A DNA stretch of 43,848 bases. Origin: Rubripirellula sp. (lineage in GTDB: Bacteria > Planctomycetota > Planctomycetia > Pirellulales > Pirellulaceae). Each line of letters starts with the position of its first letter. Positions within the stretch are counted from its first letter, which is position 1. The stretch spans positions 1 to 43,848 of the forward strand of contig JAAXIK010000111.1 in NCBI GenBank assembly GCA_012270385.1, read 5' to 3'. Positions 2,558-30,488 of this stretch are shown piece after piece. A program made the position numbers and the translations under genes. A model generated the notes under the pieces. The model did not search any database. It was not told the origin of the DNA and saw only the letters and a program-made list of their open reading frames with translations.

Positions 2558-3760
2558 GTGCAGCCACCAAAGAAAGACAATGAACTGCCGAGCACCGATA
2601 TAGCTGATTCGGCGATTAGCAGCGGTGACCATTCAAACCTATCGAGCGCCTACCAAAGACTGATTGGTGAAGAGAAAATTAGTTGGACTGGGTACCATCA
2701 CATGCTCAAGTTACTCGGGCGTGGTGGTCAGGGTGAAGTTTATCTGACGGAGCATCTCGGTACAGATGGATTTACCGTGCCGGTTGCGATGAAATTTTTT
2801 TCGCCGAAACGGTATTCAGATGTGGATGCGTACACGCAGGCAATGGAAAGAGTCGCCAGCATCGCTTCTCGTGTTGCAGTGATACAGCATGATAATCTGA
2901 TAGATGTTCAGAATTTTTTTGAACGCAATCGGATACGAATCATGATGATGGAATGGGTGGACGGGTTCGATCTCCGTGCTCTGATGAATGTTGGTTTGCT
3001 ACGCACTCTGGAAAAATGCGTTTCTCGTGATCGTTGGTGTTACATCAATGACGTCATTTTGACTGAAGGAGTTCAGCAATCTAGATTCAAGCCTGGCATT
3101 GCCGTAGCTATCGTGAGAGATGCTCTTGCAGCGCTCGCGGCACTCCATCGTGAGGGGATTGTGCACGGCGATATTAAGCCAGCGAATATCATGCTGAAGC
3201 GCAGTGGACATGCGAAACTCATTGATATGGGTTCAGCAATGGATTACCGAAACCCCCCAGAGGAGCATGAGTGCACGCCGATGTACGCACCGCCTGAGTT
3301 ATTGACACATCGGCAAGTATCACCTCAGAGTGACCTAGCGAGTCTTGGATATGTCCTCCTTGAGTTGCTGAGTGGAACCAATCCTTTCGCTGGGCAAAAA
3401 GGACTGTCATCTCTACTTAACTTTAAAAATGAGCTCCCATCACGACTTGGTGAAATATTACCCACGGAGGGTCTTCGTAATGAATTGCTGATTAAGTTTC
3501 TTATGGGCTTGATTTCGCCCGACCCTCGATCACGTTTTGCAAATGCCGAAGCAGCAGAAATGGTCGAGGAGGGTGCTGCAGCGTTTCATAGGCAATTGGT
3601 TTTAGGTGATATGGCAACTGAGTACGATAATGACATAAGGATTTGGCTGGAAGAACTCAGATCTTTGGAAATAGAAGCTCGTTCAAGAAAAGAACAAGAG
3701 ACACAATCAGCGATGATTGATGATGATCTAGCTTCCGATTTTAGTGGGTTATGGGAATAA
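2558..3760 (+). CDS. Serine/threonine protein kinase (Hanks type)
   Basis: The 400-residue protein is a eukaryotic-like protein kinase. The glycine loop is LGRGGQGEVY (about residues 53-62), the ATP-binding lysine is Lys79 in VAMKFF, and the catalytic loop is HGDIKPAN with Asp205, Lys207 and Asn210. The metal-binding motif is DMG (223-225) instead of DFG, and the P+1 region has APPE (244-247) instead of APE. HGD for HRD means the kinase lacks the arginine that usually senses activation-loop phosphorylation, so it is probably constitutively competent. No transmembrane helix or sensor domain follows; the C-terminal 60 residues are charged and probably helical. The GTG start is preceded by GAGAGAGGAAACTG, a good binding site. 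The stop overlaps the start of the next gene by one base (TAATG), indicating an operon. Confidence 0.92.
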   Translation: MQPPKKDNELPSTDIADSAISSGDHSNLSSAYQRLIGEEKISWTGYHHMLKLLGRGGQGEVYLTEHLGTDGFTVPVAMKFFSPKRYSDVDAYTQAMERVASIASRVAVIQHDNLIDVQNFFERNRIRIMMMEWVDGFDLRALMNVGLLRTLEKCVSRDRWCYINDVILTEGVQQSRFKPGIAVAIVRDALAALAALHREGIVHGDIKPANIMLKRSGHAKLIDMGSAMDYRNPPEEHECTPMYAPPELLTHRQVSPQSDLASLGYVLLELLSGTNPFAGQKGLSSLLNFKNELPSRLGEILPTEGLRNELLIKFLMGLISPDPRSRFANAEAAEMVEEGAAAFHRQLVLGDMATEYDNDIRIWLEELRSLEIEARSRKEQETQSAMIDDDLASDFSGLWE

Positions 3761-4557
3761 TGAATCAACAACACTTAGAAGTAGCCATCGAGGCAGCACG
3801 AGCTGGAGCTAGGGAATTAATGGCACGACGTGACGCCCGGGTCGTGAAGGAAAAGCAACCGAAAGATTTGGTAACGGATGCGGATTTGGCTTCACAGTCT
3901 GCGATACGTGAAATTCTGATCAGTGCGTTCAGTGATTACGCATTCGTTGGCGAAGAGGAGGGTGAGGATAAACCACCTCAGGCAGTACGTGATGGTGATA
4001 TCGATGCACCGCCTTGTTGGGTTGTTGATCCTCTAGATGGTACCGTGAATTATGTCCATCGTTTGCAGTCGTTCGCGGTATCCATCGGGCTTTATCATGG
4101 TGGTAAGGCTCGACTCGGCGTAATTTATGACCCCGTGGGTGATGAGCTATTTACTGCTGTACATGGTCAGGGGGCTCATTGCAACCAGCAAGCAATTTCA
4201 GTTAGTCAATGTGATGATATTGATAACGCCCTCGTTGCCTGCAGCTTCCCAGCTGGTGTGAAAGGTGGAGATCCTGAAGTAAGTCGATTCGTCAAGATTT
4301 TAGAATCGTGTCGATCTCTACGGCGACTTGGATCATGCGCTTTGAATATGTGTTACGTCGCATCGGGTCGTCTCGATGCTTATTGGGCCACGAGTATCGC
4401 GCCGTGGGATTGCGCGGCGGGTGTTGTGATTGCTCGTGAAGCAGGTGCGGAACTTTCCGCATATGATGGAGGCCCCTTCGATGACTGGTCACCTCGATTC
4501 TGCCTGAGCTCTACGGTCAAGCTACATGATCAGATGACGAAAAGATTAAGTCTATAG
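3760..4557 (+). CDS. Inositol monophosphatase family protein
   Basis: The 265-residue protein has the full set of metal-binding motifs of the lithium-sensitive phosphatase superfamily: LVTDAD (Asp40), GEEEG (Glu66/Glu67), WVVDPLDGT (Asp90, Asp93) and APWDCAAG (Asp217). Family members hydrolyse inositol monophosphate, fructose-1,6-bisphosphate or 3'-phosphoadenosine 5'-phosphate; sequence alone does not choose among them, though CSFPAG and the spacing look like the inositol-phosphatase branch. An in-frame ATG at 3751 would give three more residues, but the ATG at 3760 overlaps the kinase stop as TAATG and is the natural coupled start. Coupling to the kinase is the only contextual clue and does not define the substrate. 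Confidence 0.9.
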   Translation: MNQQHLEVAIEAARAGARELMARRDARVVKEKQPKDLVTDADLASQSAIREILISAFSDYAFVGEEEGEDKPPQAVRDGDIDAPPCWVVDPLDGTVNYVHRLQSFAVSIGLYHGGKARLGVIYDPVGDELFTAVHGQGAHCNQQAISVSQCDDIDNALVACSFPAGVKGGDPEVSRFVKILESCRSLRRLGSCALNMCYVASGRLDAYWATSIAPWDCAAGVVIAREAGAELSAYDGGPFDDWSPRFCLSSTVKLHDQMTKRLSL

Positions 4558-20301: not shown

Positions 20302-23300
20302 ATGAGTTGCATGCGACCCTCATTTTCCCCAGCTAAGGCACCAAACACCAAAATCAACCATATCTTTGGTTTTGATTCTGCTAATGCTGGTGGGTTAACG
20401 CGTCGGTTGTTTGCGTGCTATGTGCTCTCGCTGTACTTCTTCTTGATTGCTGCCAAACCATCCATCGGTCAGCCACCTGGAACTCCACCCCCGCAAAATT
20501 TCATCGGTGCTGGCTCAGAAGAGAGCGAAGAGGGTGTGCCGATTCGCGCATTCATGTTTTTGAGTGAATCCGGTAACCCAGTGGTGATGCCCTCTTTAAG
20601 CTGGGAGGAGTTTGATCGGTATTTAAAGCTCGATTCCGGAGTTGAGACCTCCGAACAAAAATACAGTTACCAATCGCTTGAGATTTCTGGCAAGGCGTTG
20701 GAGCAGCGTGCTGAACTCGATATCCGGTTAAAGTTGGTTGTTGATTCGACTGATGGCGGTTGGGTCAACATACCCATTAAGCTCGGTAACTTTCACCAAT
20801 TGGAACCTATATCGCTTGAGCCCGCTGTCGAGGCAATCAGCACGGTTAGCGCGGATAACTCGGGCTATCGGTTACTGGTTAAAAGCGAGAAGCGAGTAGA
20901 AACTACTTTGACGATGAGAGTTTCTGCTCGGATTGATTTCAATGCTAATTCACAGAGCCTCGGTTTCAAGCTACCTAATGTCCCATCGCGTGTTAGCGTT
21001 GAGGTTGCTGATACCACTGCTAATGCGGAGGTTTTAGGTCAGGGCGATGAAATTGTCGAAGTTGAGCGCACTGATGCGAATGGAGTGAAGGTCACTGTCG
21101 AGAGCAGCGGTGGTGACTACATGCTTCGCTGGGGTAGTAATCGGGAGACTGTCGAGAGCAGTCCGATATACGAGTTGGACAGCCGCACTACTGTTCGATG
21201 GGATTCACCTCAGGATCAACCCACAGCTTCTGTGCGATTTGATTTAAATAACCTACGAGGAGCAGTAAAGGAGTTCAGTCTCAAGTTGCCAGTAAATGCG
21301 GTTTTACTTGATGCCCCAGTTGTCTCTGACACCGGACAGGTATTGGACATAGGTCCTGCAATGACGATTTCTGGTGAGCAGATCCGACAGGTTTCCGTAC
21401 CTGCTGAAATAAAACAGCAAAGGCTTGAGTTAAGTTTCGAGTATCAATTGGTTAATGAAACCGCTTCAAGCTCTTCGCCTTTGCAGTTCAGAGTGCCGAG
21501 CATCGTTGGAGCTTTGCGGCATCGTGGCGATTTGGAATTTTCCACACCTGATGAGTATCGACTCCGGTGGAGGTCGACTTCATGGGTGCGGAGTGTGATT
21601 TTTGACTCCTCAGCTGAGTCGGGATCAGATCGCTCCTACCGATTTAACTTTGATCGACCCGGTTTCACGTTGCCTCTCTGGTTGGGAGAAAACGAAAGGC
21701 AACTGAGGATCTCATCAAGATCCGAGCTCACGACAAGGGAGCGTAATGCTGTATTGTGGATGCAGGTTGAGATCACGGGACAGACCGAAGATGGCCTGCT
21801 AAGGTTTGACGACGCAGGATGGGAGGTTCGTGTTGTTGAGTCACAATTGGGGACGCCGCTGGTTACCTTTGAAGATGACGGACTCCGAGTGGTGGATTTA
21901 TCTTCTTTGTCAAACGAAGAGGCTTCGCAGTTAATCTTTCAATTCCATCGTGTCCTCGAAACCTCGACAGAAACACCAACTGTTGACTTGAATATACCTC
22001 GTATTTCGGTATCCAATGCAAGGGAAGTGATAAGGGATTCATCACTCACGCTCGTCAATGATGGAAGAATGGCTTTAGTGGTCGATCTGAAGTCGTCTCG
22101 CGGTCTCTCGCGGTCCTCCTTGATTGAGAATTCGCTAAATCCGAGTAGCGATAGCACCTCATACCAACTGATTGATGGGGTCGATTCCGCCAAGGTGGTT
22201 GGGAATTTGGTGGAACGGCCGACTCAGATTACTTTGACAAGTGACACATTGATTGAGTTGGATGGTGATACACTCAAAACCAATTGTGATTGGGTTGTCT
22301 CCACGCTTGTGGATCTTGAGGGAAGACTGGGTATTCGAATTCCATCTGCAAACAAAAAGTGGGAAGATCAGACTTATGAAAAACACCAACCGGGTTCGGG
22401 AGTAGCGTCGAGTGATCCACTAACGGCTGAACCAAGTGAGTGGTTGGTAACCGTTGACGATTTACCGGCTCGTTTAAATTATCTGGAGGGTGATCGTTAC
22501 ACATTGATATCAGATCGCCTCACGAGCGGCACAATGCGAGTAAGGTTTCGAAACCAGAGAAAGCTAGAAGGTAGTTTTTCCGAGGGTGTTTTTGCCTCCA
22601 TTCCAATGCCTAGGCCAACTGTCTCTGATGTAACGCTTCGTGGCCCCGTAATTGTCAACTTTGAGGGTGATCCTCAGCGAGACTTTGTGTCGATCGATGA
22701 ACCGAGCGCTAAACGCTTGGAACTAGCACAGATACCAAGGGTTCCACTGCGTGCAAGGCTGAGCAACAAGCAGGAGCAGGATAGTGAACTGGAAGTTGGT
22801 CAAACGGTGATCCGGTCTCTTTTGGGTTCCTCCATTCAGCATGACCAATTGTTAACGACTATCGCTGGCGGAGAATTTTATGAGGTCAACCTAACGGTCA
22901 ACCCGTCAGAGGTAACAGTGAAATGTTTTATCGACGGTGAGCCAGTTGCTGTTCGATTGAATCAATCATCATTAATTATTCCATTAAAGAATGATCCTGA
23001 GGAGCAACTGATTGACTTGCGATTATGGTCGCCAGTGGTGACCAATAATTTTATCAATGAGCTCACTCCGTTATTCAATCTTGAAGGATTTGTTAACGGT
23101 GTCTATTGGCAAGTCTTAACCGCTGTCGATTCGCACGTGGTCTGGGCGTCTCACTCATTAGGTAGGTCCATGACGTGGAGATACGATCGCTGGAAACTCT
23201 ATCGAGACGCTAACTACAGTGATGATGCGCTTTTGGATTTAGTTGGGGCAAAGGTAAACCTAATGCCACCCGGTAATCGTTATCTTTATCGTGGCTTCGA

Positions 23301-23667
23301 GACTGGTGCATTTCGTGTGCTCTTGGTATCGAGGGTTGCGCTGTGGATCGTCATCGGTTCAATGGCCATTTTGCTCACGGTCGTGGTAACAAAATTTGGC
23401 TTTTTCAGACATCCCGCAACATTAGTGGCGGCGTTAGCAATTCTCTTGGGGATTTGTGTGGTCGCCCCGGAGGGTGTCATTTTAGCTGGACAATATACGC
23501 TGCTTGCTCTGATGCTCGTCATCGTAATGATTTCAGTGCGACTTTCACTTAGGCCAGAATCTAAGCGCCGCCTATTTGCTAATCCCTCGCGAACGAAGAA
23601 CCAGTCCATCCAAACTTTGGAGTTGGTAACGGACATGTCTGATACCAAAGAAGGCATGAATACGTGA
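20302..23667 (+). CDS. Giant membrane-anchored exported protein of unknown function (single module)
   Basis: I do not recognise a named family. The 1121-residue protein has an N-terminal signal or anchor at about 35-57 (RRLFACYVLSLYFFLIAA, then PSIGQ as a probable cleavage zone). About 940 residues follow that read as alternating beta-strands rich in Ser, Val, Leu, Glu and Asp without cysteine clusters or enzyme motifs. Three membrane helices close the protein at about 1010-1083 (for example LWIVIGSMAILLTVVV), followed by a 38-residue charged tail. The predicted topology puts the long body outside the cytoplasmic membrane. A strand-turn-strand segment VTVKCFIDGEPVAVRL near residue 870 resembles segments in both halves of the next protein. 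The start is uncertain: ATGs at 20302 and 20311 both lack a clear binding site. The stop overlaps the next gene by 4 bases (GTGA). Confidence 0.75.
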   Translation: MSCMRPSFSPAKAPNTKINHIFGFDSANAGGLTRRLFACYVLSLYFFLIAAKPSIGQPPGTPPPQNFIGAGSEESEEGVPIRAFMFLSESGNPVVMPSLSWEEFDRYLKLDSGVETSEQKYSYQSLEISGKALEQRAELDIRLKLVVDSTDGGWVNIPIKLGNFHQLEPISLEPAVEAISTVSADNSGYRLLVKSEKRVETTLTMRVSARIDFNANSQSLGFKLPNVPSRVSVEVADTTANAEVLGQGDEIVEVERTDANGVKVTVESSGGDYMLRWGSNRETVESSPIYELDSRTTVRWDSPQDQPTASVRFDLNNLRGAVKEFSLKLPVNAVLLDAPVVSDTGQVLDIGPAMTISGEQIRQVSVPAEIKQQRLELSFEYQLVNETASSSSPLQFRVPSIVGALRHRGDLEFSTPDEYRLRWRSTSWVRSVIFDSSAESGSDRSYRFNFDRPGFTLPLWLGENERQLRISSRSELTTRERNAVLWMQVEITGQTEDGLLRFDDAGWEVRVVESQLGTPLVTFEDDGLRVVDLSSLSNEEASQLIFQFHRVLETSTETPTVDLNIPRISVSNAREVIRDSSLTLVNDGRMALVVDLKSSRGLSRSSLIENSLNPSSDSTSYQLIDGVDSAKVVGNLVERPTQITLTSDTLIELDGDTLKTNCDWVVSTLVDLEGRLGIRIPSANKKWEDQTYEKHQPGSGVASSDPLTAEPSEWLVTVDDLPARLNYLEGDRYTLISDRLTSGTMRVRFRNQRKLEGSFSEGVFASIPMPRPTVSDVTLRGPVIVNFEGDPQRDFVSIDEPSAKRLELAQIPRVPLRARLSNKQEQDSELEVGQTVIRSLLGSSIQHDQLLTTIAGGEFYEVNLTVNPSEVTVKCFIDGEPVAVRLNQSSLIIPLKNDPEEQLIDLRLWSPVVTNNFINELTPLFNLEGFVNGVYWQVLTAVDSHVVWASHSLGRSMTWRYDRWKLYRDANYSDDALLDLVGAKVNLMPPGNRYLYRGFETGAFRVLLVSRVALWIVIGSMAILLTVVVTKFGFFRHPATLVAALAILLGICVVAPEGVILAGQYTLLALMLVIVMISVRLSLRPESKRRLFANPSRTKNQSIQTLELVTDMSDTKEGMNT

Positions 23668-26600
23668 TCGGTAACGCTGCGTACTTATTGTATTCGCCAA
23701 AGAAACGATGTGGTCTACCACGGAGTGCGGCTTACTTTGCATCTTTTGCCGCACTGTGTTCTATATGGGCAGGCACCGCAACGGGGCAGGAGATATCCAG
23801 CACCCCCGGGTTGAGTGCATCAATTGTTGCTGAGGAGACTGGCAGCGAAAATCTGGTTCCCAACAACGCGGACGCAGAGTCAGAAAAGACGGTTGACAAT
23901 TTAGAAGCTCTACCCGTTGAAACCATTACCTTACCCCTTCCTCGAACACTCCCCGATGGCAGGGGGATCAGACCTATTGCTTTATTTTCCTCCCAAATGG
24001 ATGTTTTGGTATCCAAGGAGTTCCTGCCCGTTGCACTAGAGCAGTTGCGTTCAGCATTTGTTAGCCAGCAAAGTGAATCAAGCGAGTTATTATCCACCCA
24101 GATTAGCTCGTCGCAGTACGTGGTGGAACTGCAAGGGGACCAATTGATCTGCCGTCGTGGATCGTTACGCGTTTCAACGAAATTCGCTCCTCAGACGACC
24201 ATTCCTCTTGGTCGACAGAGTGTAGCTGTGCGCACCGCAGAGGTCAGACCCAACTATGGGCTTGAGGGCAATTTCCCACCGTTTGAATTTGATGCTGACG
24301 GTCGTGCTTATGCCAGCTTTCCAAAATCTGATGAGTCGGATGAAAGCTTTGATTATCTCTGGAGCTGTCGAGGTAAATCCGTAGGGAATTCGACTGACTT
24401 TAAACTGAATCTACCGCTTGTTAAGCAGACGACTATTTTTCTGGCGATTCCCTCGGGTAAGGAATTAAAGGCTCTTAATGCTGTTGCGACTCGACTTGAA
24501 AGTGTTGATCCAGCAATTCTTGAATTGGTAAATAACCAGGAAGTGGGCTGGTACCAAATTGAAGCAGGTGGCGTTGATCAACTTGATTTGACCATTGTAA
24601 ATGATCAGAGTGGGCAAACAGATTCCTTGGTAGTTCGACTTTCACAGATGCAATGTGATTTACGAACAGAGGGGATGAGTTGGACCAAGCGGTTTATCTT
24701 GAAAAAACAGCCTGATATTCCCTTTCCTGATTTGCTCTTTCGAGCACAAGAAATTATCGAAGTGAAATTAGATGGTGAATCAGTTCCTTTTTTGGTTTCG
24801 GATGTCGAAGGAGGTTATAGATATCTCAGCTTGGCGTTTTCTGAATCGGGAAGCCAGAATGCACTTGATTATTCCACTCTCTCGGTTAGCGGGTTTAGTC
24901 CAACCATCGGTTTGAATACATGGATAGATCTGCCAATTCTTGCGATCGAAGATGCACTCAACGTTGCGACCGCTGAGGAAATACAAATTTCTATTTCTGA
25001 TCCTTTTCAATTGGTTGGACTGAATTTGCCAGCTTCTTGGGAGTCTATGGAGGAACAGAGATTGGAGAATGGAAATTCCATCGTTCGTCTATTCGGACCA
25101 CTGAGAGATCATGGGATGGACGAGTTATCCGTTGGAGAACAAGAAGCAGATACTTCAAACACAAGTACAGATGTTGACAGCATCGAAAAATCCGACCCGA
25201 CGATAGATGACATAAGTCTATTGCTTGCGGAAAAACCTGCTGAAAAGATTGCTGAAACCGATATTCGATTTGAAGTAGATAAGAGAAGTTTAAAAGCTTC
25301 AGCGAAGCTGAGTATACCCGTCGATCAACAGCGTGCATTACCCATTGAGTTGGTGATAGAAGATGAATGGGAATTATTAACATTGCGATTCGCCGAATCA
25401 GATCGCCTCATTGCCAAGAGCTTGACCAAATCAACTGATAGGATCATTGAAATTTGGCCGGAGGCGAACGAGTTAACTGACGGAACAGTTGAATTGTTGG
25501 CGGATGGTGAACGCCCTCTTAGATCCTCTGGCAACCAGCTCTCAGTTCCTGCGAGTTGGTTTATCCGTAGTGGTGGTGGGTTCGGCGCGAATGTTCGCAT
25601 CTCAATAACACCAAGCGCTGCTCTCACATGGGATGGAAGCACTGCCCTTCAGCCATCCATCATGTCGTCAATGAAATCAAACGACAATGCACTATTTCAT
25701 GAGCCTATCAATGTGCGAACCCTTTGGTTTGCACCTATTAATGGAAGTCTACCCGCAGTTGACTTGGTGAGTCCGAGTGTAGCATATACTGCATCAACCC
25801 AGCTTTTGATCGGCTATCAAGATGGGCAGTTGACTGAAGAACTGAGGATTTCGATTGAATCTGAAAGCCAGTCTCTTAGTCAGATATTTATCCAAACTGA
25901 GGGGCGGGAAGGCTACCCAGACTATCAATGGAATCTGCAGAAAGAGGATGGTACAGAAGTTGTTCAACTGAATGGTGTGCGTAAGCGTGCTTCGTCTGTT
26001 GGTGATGAGTACGACCTTGATTTGGCGAATCTACCTCTCAAGGATCGATACATTGTTGCTAAACGGGTTCTGCCCGCTTCGGAGGAGATGACCTTATTAC
26101 TACCTACCGTGATAGGTTCAGCAACACAAGATGCTGAGATCCTTCTGCATCCGACTCTCCAACTGGAGAAACAGAGCCAATTATTATCTGTTATTCCAAC
26201 ATCTCGCCAGAAAGATATTCTGGGAAGTGGTACTTTTCCAAACCCCTATGACGCGAACACAGATCGTTGGCTGCGACTTAGATACGATCCTGTCAACCAA
26301 ACAACAATCAGTATTAATACCGCCTCAAATCCCATCACGCCCAACTTGGTGAGATTCGAGTCCATTCGTTGCATTGGATCTGTTAGTGGTACTGATAAGA
26401 TCCAGGCGGACTATCGAATTTATTCCACCACAGATTTTAGATTAGTCATCCCTAGTGATTGCAGATTGATTGATGTACACCGAAACGGCGTATCCATTGA
26501 GGCAGGGATTTCCGAAGCGGGAGAAATTCGCCTTCCTGCCACCTACGAAGAAGATCATATTCGCTTGAACTTCGAGCGTCGTGTACGAGCAAATTGGTTG

Positions 26601-29600
26601 ACGCGATCTTGCGAGATGCCTGAATTCAAATTGGTTGATGCTGTCGTACTTTCATCGCAGTATGACTTTGTTCCGATGCCAGATAGCGCCGTCATCAATC
26701 TTGGGGCAAAGAAAATCATATTTGATTTGCCCAAGGTAATGGAGCTTACTGAGCCGAAGCAAGCCATTTTATTAGGTCACTATGAGCATCTCTTGGCGCT
26801 CGGTTGTTTTGTGGCATTTGGTGTGTTTGGTGCAAGTGTTCTGATCGGTAGATCTTCAACATTAGCTCTGCTGATTGTATTGGTGTTTGCTTTAGCCACC
26901 GGCTTTACATGGTTTGCGCTTTCGATAGCCTTTTACGGATGGATAATCATGCCAATCGTGTCGGGTGGTCTTCTTGCTATAGCTACAAGAGGCTGGTTTA
27001 CCGAAGATTCGGTTTTCATTTCGAGGGAGAATGACCCGCCAACTCAAGAGGATGCCAAGAATACCGATGACTTCTCTGTGACAGATTTATCAGGGCGTGC
27101 CCTCGTTGTGCTGCTGTGTTCTGTAATGTCTGGCGGTGTGATACACGGTCAGGAGTTAGCTGATGACGAGATTCAGACCCCGGACACAGCCGTGAATGTA
27201 CTGGTTCCGGTTGATGCTAGTGGAGCTCGTAAGGGTGACGTGGTCTACGTGCCAAAGAAGCTTTTTACAGACTTGTTTTCGAAAGAATCCGAGAAACAAG
27301 CTAGTACAGTCAGATTTGAGTCAGCTACTTATCGAGTCAATATACAGAGAGAGGCGGATACTTCGAACACGCAAGTAGCATACGGCGAAGTACAAGCGGA
27401 ATACGTCATCATCAACAAGGGTTCGGGTAATAGCCAGGCACTACCTTTACCCATTGATTTTGAAGCGATCAGGCGGATCGAGCTGCTTGGTGAAACGACG
27501 AGAATTTTACCATTTGAGCGAGAGGGACGCTTCCTTCGGCTAGTCACCTCCCCTAACGCTAATCTCTTTAAGATACGGGTTACCTTTAAGCCGAAGCTTT
27601 CAAAGCTGGGTCGATGGGAAAGACTAGAACTTCCAATCCCATCCATTGCGAATTCTCGAATCACTGTTGAGTCAGGTATCCCACTCGATGCTGTTCGTCT
27701 GGGAGGTAGTAACGGTTGGTTGGTAGCGGAAGAAACAAGTCTTTCACGCTCTTGGGTGGATGACTTGGGGCCAACCAACGCCTTAACTTTAGATGTGCGG
27801 GGATTTCTTGATGGTGCTTCTACCGAGAGAAATGAGTTGTCGCGACGGTACTGGGTTAGAGCAGGTGCGCGTGATGTGGTTATTGACTGTGAATTGGATT
27901 TTCCCAATACACCTGCTATCGGGGAAAGCTTCCAATTTGTAGTGCTGGATTCGAGAATGCCGACAATCATCGGCAGTTCATGGCGACTGGTAAGCTCCGA
28001 ACTTTACAGTCCTTCTCGCCGTCTAGTAACCGTGGAGTCTGCGAGTAATCAAGCGGAACCTATTCGATTAGTCTGGAAATTTGAAGTTGATTGGCAAGTA
28101 ATCGAGGAAGAATGGGTTGGACAGATCACCATTCCTGAAGTGATCGCATCCGCTTTAGGAAATAATTCTGATCCATGGGTGGCGCTACAGTGCGAACCTA
28201 ATATGAAGTTGCCGCCAATTTTAAATTCGTCGAGTGAACCCATGGCGGTTGATCAATTTCTAAGTCGCTGGCGCGGATTTCGTGGTTCGATTAGTCGAGC
28301 TTTTGTGCCTGTTGGATCGATTCCGGTAATAGAAGTTCGTCGGAAAATTACCAACGTTGAAAACCTGGTCAGGCAGCATTCTTATCACGCGCACGTGGAT
28401 GATGAGAAAGTACAAGTGCATTATCGATCAGAGTTAATCATCAATGGAAATTCACCTCAACTCCCTCAATTGTTTGTGACGGATAAATTGAGGGTGAATC
28501 GCATAAATATTGACGGTCAGCCAGTTGCACTGCCGTCCAAGGAGCTCAGTAACGGGAGGGGTTACTATGTGCTTCCAGGCATTGGTAAAAAGACAGTTAA
28601 TGTTGATTTATTTGCCGAACAGCCATTAGCCGATGGTAAGCCATTTCAATTACCCGCCGCACATATCGTAGCCAATTCTTCTGCACCGGCTGCTGAATGC
28701 CTGCTGACTTGCATGCCATCTACGAAAATCCTGGAAAAGGATGGTAGCCTTTACCAAGGCGGCGAAGTCCGGCCTGATGAAACATTGCTAGGGTATGGCG
28801 TGCCTTTGGGGGCTCGAGTGGTCGCATCATGGACCCAACGGTTGGCAACAGAGGAATCAGAGGAAGGTTTTTTTGCTAATCAGTGGATTTGTGAGCGAGG
28901 GAATGAGGATTTGACCGTCGATCAGGCAGTATCTCTATCGCGGACTAATCGACGGTGGACCATGCAAGCTGTGTTCAAATTTCGCAATGACAGACCTAGA
29001 GCGATATGGGTAGAAGTTCCAACGATATGGACTGAGGATATTTCTGTGCTTGGAGGAGAAATCCTGCAGAGGGTACCTGCGATCGAGGAATCTCGAACGG
29101 TTTTGGAAATCGGTTTACTTGAGGAACGCGAAGGCCGGCAAGGTTTCAGTTTACAGGGGCGGCTTGATAATCTTGGAACAACTAGGATTGGTGTTCCACG
29201 AATTTCTATGTTGAATATTAGGACTGGTGAGATATATGTGGCAGTTCCTAAACAACTTGACGGTCAAAAAGCGAAGTGGCGTACAAGCGCAGTAGATCGC
29301 GCAAAAATCCCGGATGATCTTGATAGCGGTATTTCTTCGGGGGGCTATCAAGCCTATCGAGCAGTGAATAGTGCTTATTCAATTGATCTGGCGCCTCTAC
29401 CTGACGTTGAGTCAAAACCCAATGTGTTCTGCTCAGATACACATGTGTTCCCAAAAAAAGAGAGTTTATTGGTACTTACACATTGGGATATTTATCCTGG
29501 CAATGAGCAAGCATTTGATGTGGATTTGCCCGAGTCGTGTGAGGTTCTGGCTATATGGTCAGATGGCAGATCGACAAAAAAAGAGGTCACAGAGATCAAC

Positions 29601-30488
29601 GCGAAAAAGGTCTTAAAAATACCTTTTGCTTTGGATCGTTACTCTCATTCGATTCAATTATTAGTTCGCATGAAAACGAAGCCGGAATTTCTTAGTTTAG
29701 AACTGCCGCGTCTCAGGAACCTTGATCCGGAGGTCAAATGGCTAAGCGTGTACAAGAATGACAATCAGAGTGACTATAAAAAGAAAGAAATCGTGATAAA
29801 CAATGATCAGTTGCGACGATCTAGTTTGGCTCGCGCGGTGGTGAATTCGATTGAAGTCATCGTTAATTCCGGACAGTATGGTGAGTCAGAAGTGAAGCCT
29901 TGGTTGTCGAGTCGAGTGCAGAGATATTTACGACTCACGAATCCCGATATTCCCACTCTAACACCCTCTTGGAAACAACAGAATTTAAAGCGACTCTTTG
30001 AACAGGATCAGGATACATCCAACAATACGATTTCTACCGACTGGGATAATCTCGATATGAAAATCCGGGAAATGGTCCACAATTTTTCCCTAAAGGTAGA
30101 GGATTTGGATTCGATTGAATCGGGAGCCCTTTTCCCAGTCCGCGAATTTGATGGTTATCAAACGAGCAAGATTTGGGGTTACGAGAAGCTCGAGTGTAAC
30201 GAGCTTCTCAGGAGTTACCTTACGCGTGAGCATAGTGTTAGCGTAGCGATCCAACCGATACTTGGTCTAAGTCTCTTAGGCTTCATGTTACTTTGGGTAC
30301 AGCGCAATCCGATAACCACGCGAGGCATTGTTGAAAATCCCTCGTTCTGGCTATTTACCCTTGGTTTGAGCTGTTCAATTGTATTGCCGGTGCCGATAGC
30401 TGCCGGTTTAATCCTTATCGCTGTGATCATCCCACTACTTTCCAACTCCAAGTTTATGCAGCGTCTGGCGATCCGATGGCAAAGATGA
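23664..30488 (+). CDS. Giant two-module membrane protein of unknown function, apparent fusion
   Basis: The 2274-residue protein starts at a GTG overlapping the previous stop (GTGA) with GAAGG upstream, so it is translationally coupled. Its first half has a signal peptide (about 20-42, ending GTATGQ), a long beta-rich body and three membrane helices at about 1035-1110. A cytoplasm-sized polar linker follows, then a signal-peptide-like helix at about 1143-1162 (RALVVLLCSVMSGGVIHGQ), a second beta-rich body of about 1000 residues and three helices at about 2190-2265. Both bodies open with a similar segment (RPIALFSSQMDVLVSKEFLP; NVLVPVDASGARKGDVVYVP). Both contain a strand pair around a short Gly turn (DVHRNGVSIEAG; NRINIDGQPVALP) like that in the preceding protein. 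No enzyme motif is visible. A scaffold or envelope role is plausible only by architecture. It is followed 110 bases later by a heme protein gene on the same strand. Confidence 0.8.
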   Translation: MIGNAAYLLYSPKKRCGLPRSAAYFASFAALCSIWAGTATGQEISSTPGLSASIVAEETGSENLVPNNADAESEKTVDNLEALPVETITLPLPRTLPDGRGIRPIALFSSQMDVLVSKEFLPVALEQLRSAFVSQQSESSELLSTQISSSQYVVELQGDQLICRRGSLRVSTKFAPQTTIPLGRQSVAVRTAEVRPNYGLEGNFPPFEFDADGRAYASFPKSDESDESFDYLWSCRGKSVGNSTDFKLNLPLVKQTTIFLAIPSGKELKALNAVATRLESVDPAILELVNNQEVGWYQIEAGGVDQLDLTIVNDQSGQTDSLVVRLSQMQCDLRTEGMSWTKRFILKKQPDIPFPDLLFRAQEIIEVKLDGESVPFLVSDVEGGYRYLSLAFSESGSQNALDYSTLSVSGFSPTIGLNTWIDLPILAIEDALNVATAEEIQISISDPFQLVGLNLPASWESMEEQRLENGNSIVRLFGPLRDHGMDELSVGEQEADTSNTSTDVDSIEKSDPTIDDISLLLAEKPAEKIAETDIRFEVDKRSLKASAKLSIPVDQQRALPIELVIEDEWELLTLRFAESDRLIAKSLTKSTDRIIEIWPEANELTDGTVELLADGERPLRSSGNQLSVPASWFIRSGGGFGANVRISITPSAALTWDGSTALQPSIMSSMKSNDNALFHEPINVRTLWFAPINGSLPAVDLVSPSVAYTASTQLLIGYQDGQLTEELRISIESESQSLSQIFIQTEGREGYPDYQWNLQKEDGTEVVQLNGVRKRASSVGDEYDLDLANLPLKDRYIVAKRVLPASEEMTLLLPTVIGSATQDAEILLHPTLQLEKQSQLLSVIPTSRQKDILGSGTFPNPYDANTDRWLRLRYDPVNQTTISINTASNPITPNLVRFESIRCIGSVSGTDKIQADYRIYSTTDFRLVIPSDCRLIDVHRNGVSIEAGISEAGEIRLPATYEEDHIRLNFERRVRANWLTRSCEMPEFKLVDAVVLSSQYDFVPMPDSAVINLGAKKIIFDLPKVMELTEPKQAILLGHYEHLLALGCFVAFGVFGASVLIGRSSTLALLIVLVFALATGFTWFALSIAFYGWIIMPIVSGGLLAIATRGWFTEDSVFISRENDPPTQEDAKNTDDFSVTDLSGRALVVLLCSVMSGGVIHGQELADDEIQTPDTAVNVLVPVDASGARKGDVVYVPKKLFTDLFSKESEKQASTVRFESATYRVNIQREADTSNTQVAYGEVQAEYVIINKGSGNSQALPLPIDFEAIRRIELLGETTRILPFEREGRFLRLVTSPNANLFKIRVTFKPKLSKLGRWERLELPIPSIANSRITVESGIPLDAVRLGGSNGWLVAEETSLSRSWVDDLGPTNALTLDVRGFLDGASTERNELSRRYWVRAGARDVVIDCELDFPNTPAIGESFQFVVLDSRMPTIIGSSWRLVSSELYSPSRRLVTVESASNQAEPIRLVWKFEVDWQVIEEEWVGQITIPEVIASALGNNSDPWVALQCEPNMKLPPILNSSSEPMAVDQFLSRWRGFRGSISRAFVPVGSIPVIEVRRKITNVENLVRQHSYHAHVDDEKVQVHYRSELIINGNSPQLPQLFVTDKLRVNRINIDGQPVALPSKELSNGRGYYVLPGIGKKTVNVDLFAEQPLADGKPFQLPAAHIVANSSAPAAECLLTCMPSTKILEKDGSLYQGGEVRPDETLLGYGVPLGARVVASWTQRLATEESEEGFFANQWICERGNEDLTVDQAVSLSRTNRRWTMQAVFKFRNDRPRAIWVEVPTIWTEDISVLGGEILQRVPAIEESRTVLEIGLLEEREGRQGFSLQGRLDNLGTTRIGVPRISMLNIRTGEIYVAVPKQLDGQKAKWRTSAVDRAKIPDDLDSGISSGGYQAYRAVNSAYSIDLAPLPDVESKPNVFCSDTHVFPKKESLLVLTHWDIYPGNEQAFDVDLPESCEVLAIWSDGRSTKKEVTEINAKKVLKIPFALDRYSHSIQLLVRMKTKPEFLSLELPRLRNLDPEVKWLSVYKNDNQSDYKKKEIVINNDQLRRSSLARAVVNSIEVIVNSGQYGESEVKPWLSSRVQRYLRLTNPDIPTLTPSWKQQNLKRLFEQDQDTSNNTISTDWDNLDMKIREMVHNFSLKVEDLDSIESGALFPVREFDGYQTSKIWGYEKLECNELLRSYLTREHSVSVAIQPILGLSLLGFMLLWVQRNPITTRGIVENPSFWLFTLGLSCSIVLPVPIAAGLILIAVIIPLLSNSKFMQRLAIRWQR

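Follow-up and report, generated by a model that had tools for sequence, protein, structure and literature searches.

Three homologous modules are encoded by two overlapping genes of Rubripirellula sp., one by gene A and two (B1 and B2) by the single chain of gene B. We favour, with a modest degree of confidence, the explanation that these genes encode three subunits of one Planctomycetota envelope assembly, in which B would be cut at an internal signal and the products would join in a heteromeric scaffold. The stretch of DNA analysed here, referred to as the window, comprises 43,848 nucleotides of the contig JAAXIK010000111.1.

Layout of Genes A and B

The open reading frames of both genes were as given in the initial annotation and overlapped by 4 nt, and the same 4-nt overlap was present in 26 of the 40 aligned rows, the window among them. 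Module B1 was defined as residues 1 to about 1139 of B and module B2 as residues about 1140 to 2274. The features of the two genes are listed below, a slash marking the junction behind a signal helix.

20302..23667, + strand: gene A, 1121 aa; one module with signal peptide, five beta domains and three membrane helices
20392..20469, + strand: residues 31-56, N-terminal signal peptide of A; the conserved Q-PPGT follows
20650..23238, + strand: body of A, residues 117-286, 287-463, 464-637, 638-827 and 828-979; AlphaFold2 model
23332..23547, + strand: three membrane helices of A, about residues 1011-1082; positive tail predicted inside
23664..30488, + strand: gene B, 2274 aa; modules B1 and B2 in a single chain
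23724..23786, + strand: N-terminal signal peptide of B1, about residues 21-41, ending TATG/QE; read from the sequence
24084..26720, + strand: body of B1, borders at residues 141, 320, 524, 703, 892 and 1020; mapped from A by profile only
26790..26981, + strand: three membrane helices of B1, about residues 1043-1106
26982..27086, + strand: linker between B1 and the internal signal, predicted inside; contains the DFS motif of close relatives
27087..27149, + strand: internal signal-peptide-like helix, residues 1142-1162; predicted cut GVIHG/QELA after base 27149
27300..29780, + strand: body of B2, five beta domains, residues 1213-1386, 1387-1561, 1562-1742, 1743-1916 and 1917-2039; AlphaFold2 model and profile mapping
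29781..30158, + strand: pre-membrane stretch of B2, mostly helical; AlphaFold2 model, parts at low confidence
30195..30443, + strand: C-terminal membrane helices of B2, about residues 2178-2260; positive tail predicted inside

Since the signal helix of A starts near residue 31, the true start of this gene may lie downstream of the annotated ATG. A short [DE]FS motif was seen before the internal signal helix both in the window (27069-27077) and in close relatives.

The layout proposed earlier, namely a signal-like helix running to GQ, a beta-rich body and membrane helices, was found in all three modules. The opening helix ends before GQ at residues 56-57 of A, 41-42 of B and 1162-1163 at the internal site; the N-terminal one of B is visible in the sequence and lies below the threshold of the hydropathy scan. 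Three C-terminal helices were found in A, three in B1 and two to three in B2. The density of K+R in the first loop, the second loop and the tail, calculated from the rows with exactly three detected helices, was 0.156/0.000/0.186 for A (38/40 rows), 0.185/0.024/0.149 for B1 (29/40 rows) and 0.194/0.030/0.277 for B2 (17/40 rows). This charge pattern places the bodies outside and the tails inside, in agreement with the topology that had been proposed, in which the linker is inside and the second body outside. As the linker is inside by this pattern, a signal peptide at this place would have the right orientation.

Homology of the Three Modules

A BLAST comparison of the bodies of A, B1 and B2 detected no similarity between them, the best pairwise E being 0.33. 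In spite of this, the profile–profile comparison with hhalign aligned the modules nearly end to end: A with B1 at Prob 99.5 over 853 columns (score 224.5), A with B2 at Prob 99.0 over 773 columns (score 179.5) and B1 with B2 at Prob 99.2 over 713 columns (score 190.2). It should be noted that hhalign E-values refer to single pairs, so the weight rests on the reversed-profile controls (n=5), which scored at most 41.7 compared with 180-225 for the real module pairs. The 40-row profiles consisted of the 40 fetched family regions, minus L066 and plus the window; the fused gene of L066 was left out of all of them because its protein drew B into an A profile. The rows of L110 and L112 in A4 are partial. 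We conclude that A, B1 and B2 are homologous, which bears out the description of them as three copies of one module.

A strand-turn-strand segment had also been described as recurring at a similar place in all three copies. Two of its instances do correspond, as FIDGEPV of A (residue 876) is the counterpart of HRNGVSI of B (residue 939), both in domain 5. The third does not: NIDGQPV (B residue 1615) sits in domain 3 of B2, and the aligned B2 counterpart is WSDGRST (B residue 1965).

Five-Domain Bodies and Their Fold

AlphaFold2 models of moderate confidence were obtained for mature A (pLDDT 70.6, pTM 0.32, from a 14-row alignment) and for B2 (pLDDT 68.4, pTM 0.46, from a 13-row alignment). Both models are mostly beta, with long hairpins every 170-190 residues, five per body. 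The domain borders of A, read off its model at residues 117/287/464/638/828, map by the A–B2 profile to B residues 1213/1387/1562/1743/1917. The latter are residues 48/222/397/578/752 of the B2 model and fall within about ten residues of that model's own hairpin starts. The agreement of the domain borders between the two structure predictions backs, together with the profiles, the duplication of one module.

When the bodies were split into five profiles each, the first and fifth domains matched their counterparts at 92-96%. The middle domains matched across positions, with 4/15 same-position pairs below 6% and 18/90 other pairs above 50%; among the reversed controls of the domain profiles, 1/225 exceeded 20%, reaching 46.5%. 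Either the first and last domains are specific to their position, with a general repeat between them, or the borders of B1 are imprecise.

Foldseek matches were re-examined on the predicted models of A and B2. A Z score of 13.9 was obtained for A residues 61-408 (domains 1-2) against Ost1 (6ezn_A; 308 residues aligned, rmsd 10.8 Å). Among the single domains, A domain 2 matched LTA4H (3fum) with Z 13.5 (164 aligned, 3.5 Å), A domain 1 an M1-family N-domain with Z 12.3 (152 aligned) and A domain 5 the chain 3q7j_A with Z 12.1 (142 aligned, 3.6 Å), while B2 domain 1 matched aminopeptidase N (4qhp) with Z 10.9 (142 aligned, 3.3 Å) and a B2 range beginning with domain 5 an M1 N-domain with Z 10.3. 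As modelled, domains 1, 2 and 5 of A and domains 1 and 5 of B2 thus resemble the N-terminal fold of M1 aminopeptidases; domains 3 and 4 of A and B2 were absent among the M1-N matches listed. The whole-model TM-scores of Foldseek were low among the matches listed, those of Ost1/ribophorin being 0.10-0.17 on the query (A: 0.13-0.17). The top B2 match of Foldseek was an integrin. Integrins and mastigoneme proteins were rejected as relatives at TM-scores below 0.2, and integrins share only the chain of beta domains.

The Internal Signal-Like Helix and Gene-Order Variants

The signal-like helix that had been noted inside B is present at residues 1142-1162 and is followed by the GQ context at 1162-1163. 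In the alignment of the B proteins, B2 is preceded by a hydrophobic helix whose sequence varies but which in most cases closes with small-x-small, often with a following Q; examples of the junction are SA/QE, AASG/QT and LQG/QD. A signal-peptidase-like motif was present after the internal helix in 33 of 39 family rows versus 41 of 333 other C-terminal helices, and the same rule recovered 53 of 76 N-terminal signals. For this count 39/40 rows were used, L079 being left out with a helix below the threshold. The further loci of the genus outside the family set had the motif at 9/9 internal helices versus 6/56 others. In distant genomes it was weaker (6/11 internal helices versus 12/52 others, p 0.06); these counts were made by hand, and the internal helix of L150 was left out on account of its junction, which left 11 of 12, and its four helices were kept among the 52. 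As the motif rule was written after viewing the family sequences and is lenient, some of its sites lying in the linker well past the helix, the motif counts describe more than they test. A possible internal translation start, i.e., a start codon with a Shine–Dalgarno-like site, was found before the internal helix in 8 of 40 rows, a mild excess over the 6.6% of random in-gene zones.

The gene order around this junction was compared in 40 regions of the bacterial family, which had been picked for an A or B match. A and B were adjacent and co-oriented in 39 of them. In the 40th, that of Planctomycetes bacterium CA13 (L066/L113), a member of the family outside the genus, all three modules were joined in a single 3448-aa ORF, and both junctions, that between A and B included, carried a signal-like helix. 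Counting this fused gene, B1 and B2 belonged to one ORF in 40/40 regions. Two distant genomes from other classes of the phylum, L142 and L144, carried three consecutive module genes. Those of L144 encode 1128, 1237 and 1138 aa, the second and third matching best with the B1 and B2 profiles and the third having one C-terminal helix in the scan. Those of L142 encode 1202, 1419 and 1470 aa, the third being ambiguous by profile. Signal-like N-termini were found in all six genes, that of gene two in L144 only on visual inspection. The survey for split versions suggested in the initial annotation has thus found the halves of B as separate genes, and the three-gene versions and the fusion of A with B support the gene merging proposed there. 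Related gene sets occur as three genes, as A plus B1–B2, or as one three-module gene.

Among the 15 other non-family regions, B was fused in nine (ORFs of 1965-3525 aa with provisional starts), ran off the contig end in one, was short in two and was unclear in three. In L138 and L139, B has about 1610 aa and a truncated B2 in which no C-terminal helices were detected; cleavage of the internal signal would therefore release this B2 as a soluble protein.

What is new here is that the internal helix of B looks, in its sequence features, like a cleavable signal peptide. It might instead be an uncut signal anchor, in which case B would stay a single chain that crosses the membrane about seven times and has both bodies outside. 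The constant fusion of B1 with B2 in the family regions agrees with an anchor, hydropathy and charge suit a membrane pass equally well, and the motif is absent from 6/39 internal helices of the family and 5/11 in the distant genomes. Nevertheless, we regard the uncut anchor as possible but rather unlikely, given the enrichment of the motif (33/39 versus 41/333) and the separate genes of L142 and L144, which begin with signal-like N-termini at the same place. Judging by these sequences, B is probably cut into two subunits, so that one continuous multi-module protein may not persist. The earlier proposal that duplication and fusion built a multi-module envelope protein consequently stands for the merged reading frame, which exists, but probably not for the chain, which would be cut again at the internal signal peptide.

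Distribution and Divergence

Of 100 genomes of the bacterial family, 69 gave a match to A and 33 to B with single-sequence queries. Profile searches covered 148 genomes of the class, of which 104 matched A and 118 B2, and 119 genomes of the phylum, of which 32 matched A and 34 B2; as the modules are homologous, a profile match need not be the orthologous module. Plasmid records gave no match to A. A further pair, diverged from the first, is present in some genomes; L149 and L150, for instance, come from the same genome. The genus also has an additional B-like gene that has diverged, with ORFs of 2382 and 2408 aa in the two relatives L154 (G046) and L153 (G092). In the window's own genome (L155, contig C327, 5288-11600), this gene is represented by two ORFs and has an internal signal-like helix too (MGFAQ); as unread bases lie at the break between the two ORFs, the break is probably an assembly gap.

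Among close relatives, B is the fastest-diverging part of the locus. In the comparison of window positions 10158-33508 with L101-L111, its identity to the window was 25-33%, that of A 34-49% and that of the flanks 41-88%. Such fast divergence of B is unusual for an internal scaffold and counts against the scaffold explanation. It would suit surface adhesins or an S-layer-like coat, diverging through phage, predator or surface exposure, as would the large beta-rich bodies and the presence of integrin ectodomains and mastigoneme proteins among the Foldseek matches. We consider a surface role of this kind improbable: the multi-pass C-terminal helical anchors suggest the cytoplasmic membrane, the planctomycete cell-surface signal family was absent when the window proteins were compared with Pfam at E up to 1, the TM-scores of the integrins were below 0.2, and the divergence of A was just slightly above that of the flanking WD40 and DUF7133 genes.

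Relation to Known Families

No Pfam or NCBIfam model reached its cut-off on A, B1 or B2. The earlier statement that the proteins belong to no described family therefore holds for sequence families, whereas their fold is recognisable in structure matches. PF17900, the N-terminal domain of M1 aminopeptidases, gave no match in A, B1 and B2 at E up to 1, nor, at E up to 0.1, in 25 rows each of A and B2. Its beta-saddle fold was found on the predicted models, with Z 10.3-13.5 over about 140-165 residues, in domains 1, 2 and 5 of A and domains 1 and 5 of B2. Compared with the M1-N profile (18 rows from 18 of 20 loci of the same bacterial family), the module domains gave at best a weak match of 33.7% (B1 domain 3), the reversed controls reaching at most 6.7%. 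By eye, 9 of the 15 domain profiles align start-to-start with the M1-N profile, though weakly. A/B differ from PF17900 proteins in their tandem repeats, in the lack of HExxH in the window proteins and of a Pfam match, and in a profile similarity of at most 33.7%.

This likeness would also be expected if the modules were M1 peptidase relatives without activity, binding or guiding the substrates of an enzyme, the modelled domain fold and the weak register of nine domain profiles being in favour of this. The HExxH motif was missing from the A and B proteins of the window, from 39 of 40 A rows (present in one) and from 40/40 B rows, and Pfam showed no peptidase in the A/B proteins; we give this explanation only a slim chance.

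The VIT domain (PF08487) was also considered and rejected, as it had no Pfam match and its best hhalign probability against a 16-row VIT profile (from 16/20 loci) was 3.6%. Profile A8 had no sequence match among PDB chains. In the literature, searched by titles and abstract openings, no paper was found on proteins of the A/B type or on internal signal peptides in planctomycetes.

Neighbouring Genes

In close relatives, the genes follow the order DUF1501, PPC, PSCyt2/PSD1, WD40-PSCyt1, A, B, DUF7133. The DUF7133 cytochrome c gene lies downstream of the pair in 10 of 13 close-relative loci, one of the remaining three being cut at A. Among the 40 family loci, viewed as 20-kb regions that cover a few kb of flank at most, the heme-protein gene follows B in just two, L061 and L062, both from the window's genus. 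The partnership of the modules with the downstream heme protein, as suggested in the initial annotation, is not borne out by this distribution.

In 13 of the 40 family loci, the pair has an inositol monophosphatase as its upstream neighbour, and this gene recurs in 12 of 60 loci. In the window, its homologue (3751-4557) lies 16 kb upstream of the pair, with a protein kinase at 2558-3760, and the genus has perhaps gained a block between the phosphatase and the pair. In 14 of 60 loci, a protein of about 220-310 aa without an NCBIfam match is encoded close to A, on one strand or the other (e.g., L064:3753-4430).

That A and B are part of the surrounding PSCyt/DUF7133 heme-protein cluster and serve its metabolism is very improbable: the gene order from DUF1501 to DUF7133 does recur among close relatives, but the 38 non-genus family loci are without those neighbours in the stretch viewed, the recurrent neighbours being instead the inositol monophosphatase and the protein of about 220-310 aa. 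The A/B pair looks self-contained.

Discussion

In the explanation that we favour, A, B1 and B2 are subunits of a scaffold, each of which would be exported by its signal peptide. Outside the cytoplasmic membrane, the five beta domains of each subunit, similar in kind to those of M1 aminopeptidase N / ribophorin I, would line up in tandem as a rod, held by the C-terminal helices in this membrane with the tail inside. Signal peptidase I would cut B at the internal signal, in the window between G1162 and Q1163, and equal amounts of B1 and B2 would thus arise from one translation product. Together with A, they would assemble on the outer side of the cytoplasmic membrane into a heteromeric scaffold. 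The fusions, as well as the 4-nt overlap through translational coupling of A and B, may keep the subunit ratios and co-assembly fixed. We infer the cleavage, the complex formation and the scaffold role. The fuller picture, i.e., a three-subunit scaffold of 15 ribophorin-I-like domains released from a cellular polyprotein by signal peptidase I, for which evolution has used three genes, two or one, is a tentative one, to which we give somewhat less than an even chance.

The closest functional analogy may be ribophorin I, the non-catalytic, membrane-anchored subunit of oligosaccharyltransferase. In Ribophorin I / Ost1, tandem M1-N-like beta domains are followed by a membrane anchor, and A may share this arrangement. 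Unlike it, A/B have five domains per module, three membrane helices and three modules, and are bacterial; they had no sequence match to PDB chains, and no link to glycosylation was seen. With no sequence tie to ribophorin I, A/B are not assigned to it.

The cytochrome b/c1 precursor fbcH of Bradyrhizobium is a precedent for the proposed cut, as its single gene encodes two membrane proteins that, once exported, come apart at an internal signal sequence. The proteins are unrelated to B, and the two predicted cleavage products of B are homologous to each other.

A/B, with their predicted export, resemble the giant surface proteins of Tuwongella immobilis in being very large and exported; 8 of the 10 longest proteins of that organism (4,016-10,566 aa) are reported to carry a planctomycete signal motif, and the window proteins differ from them in that this signal family is not among their Pfam matches (PMC8567305). 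The same source describes planctomycete membranes as heavily invaginated (PMC8567305), which makes a conserved candidate for a membrane-anchored scaffold worth having. A and B are a very large protein pair without a Pfam or NCBIfam name, the profiles of which find matches in 104 and 118 of the 148 genomes sampled from the class, and the closest folds of the pair include a subunit of the eukaryotic oligosaccharyltransferase. Should B prove to be a precursor, it would offer a clear, testable example of a cellular polyprotein in bacteria whose subunits are homologous, and naturally split and fully fused forms could be compared with it.
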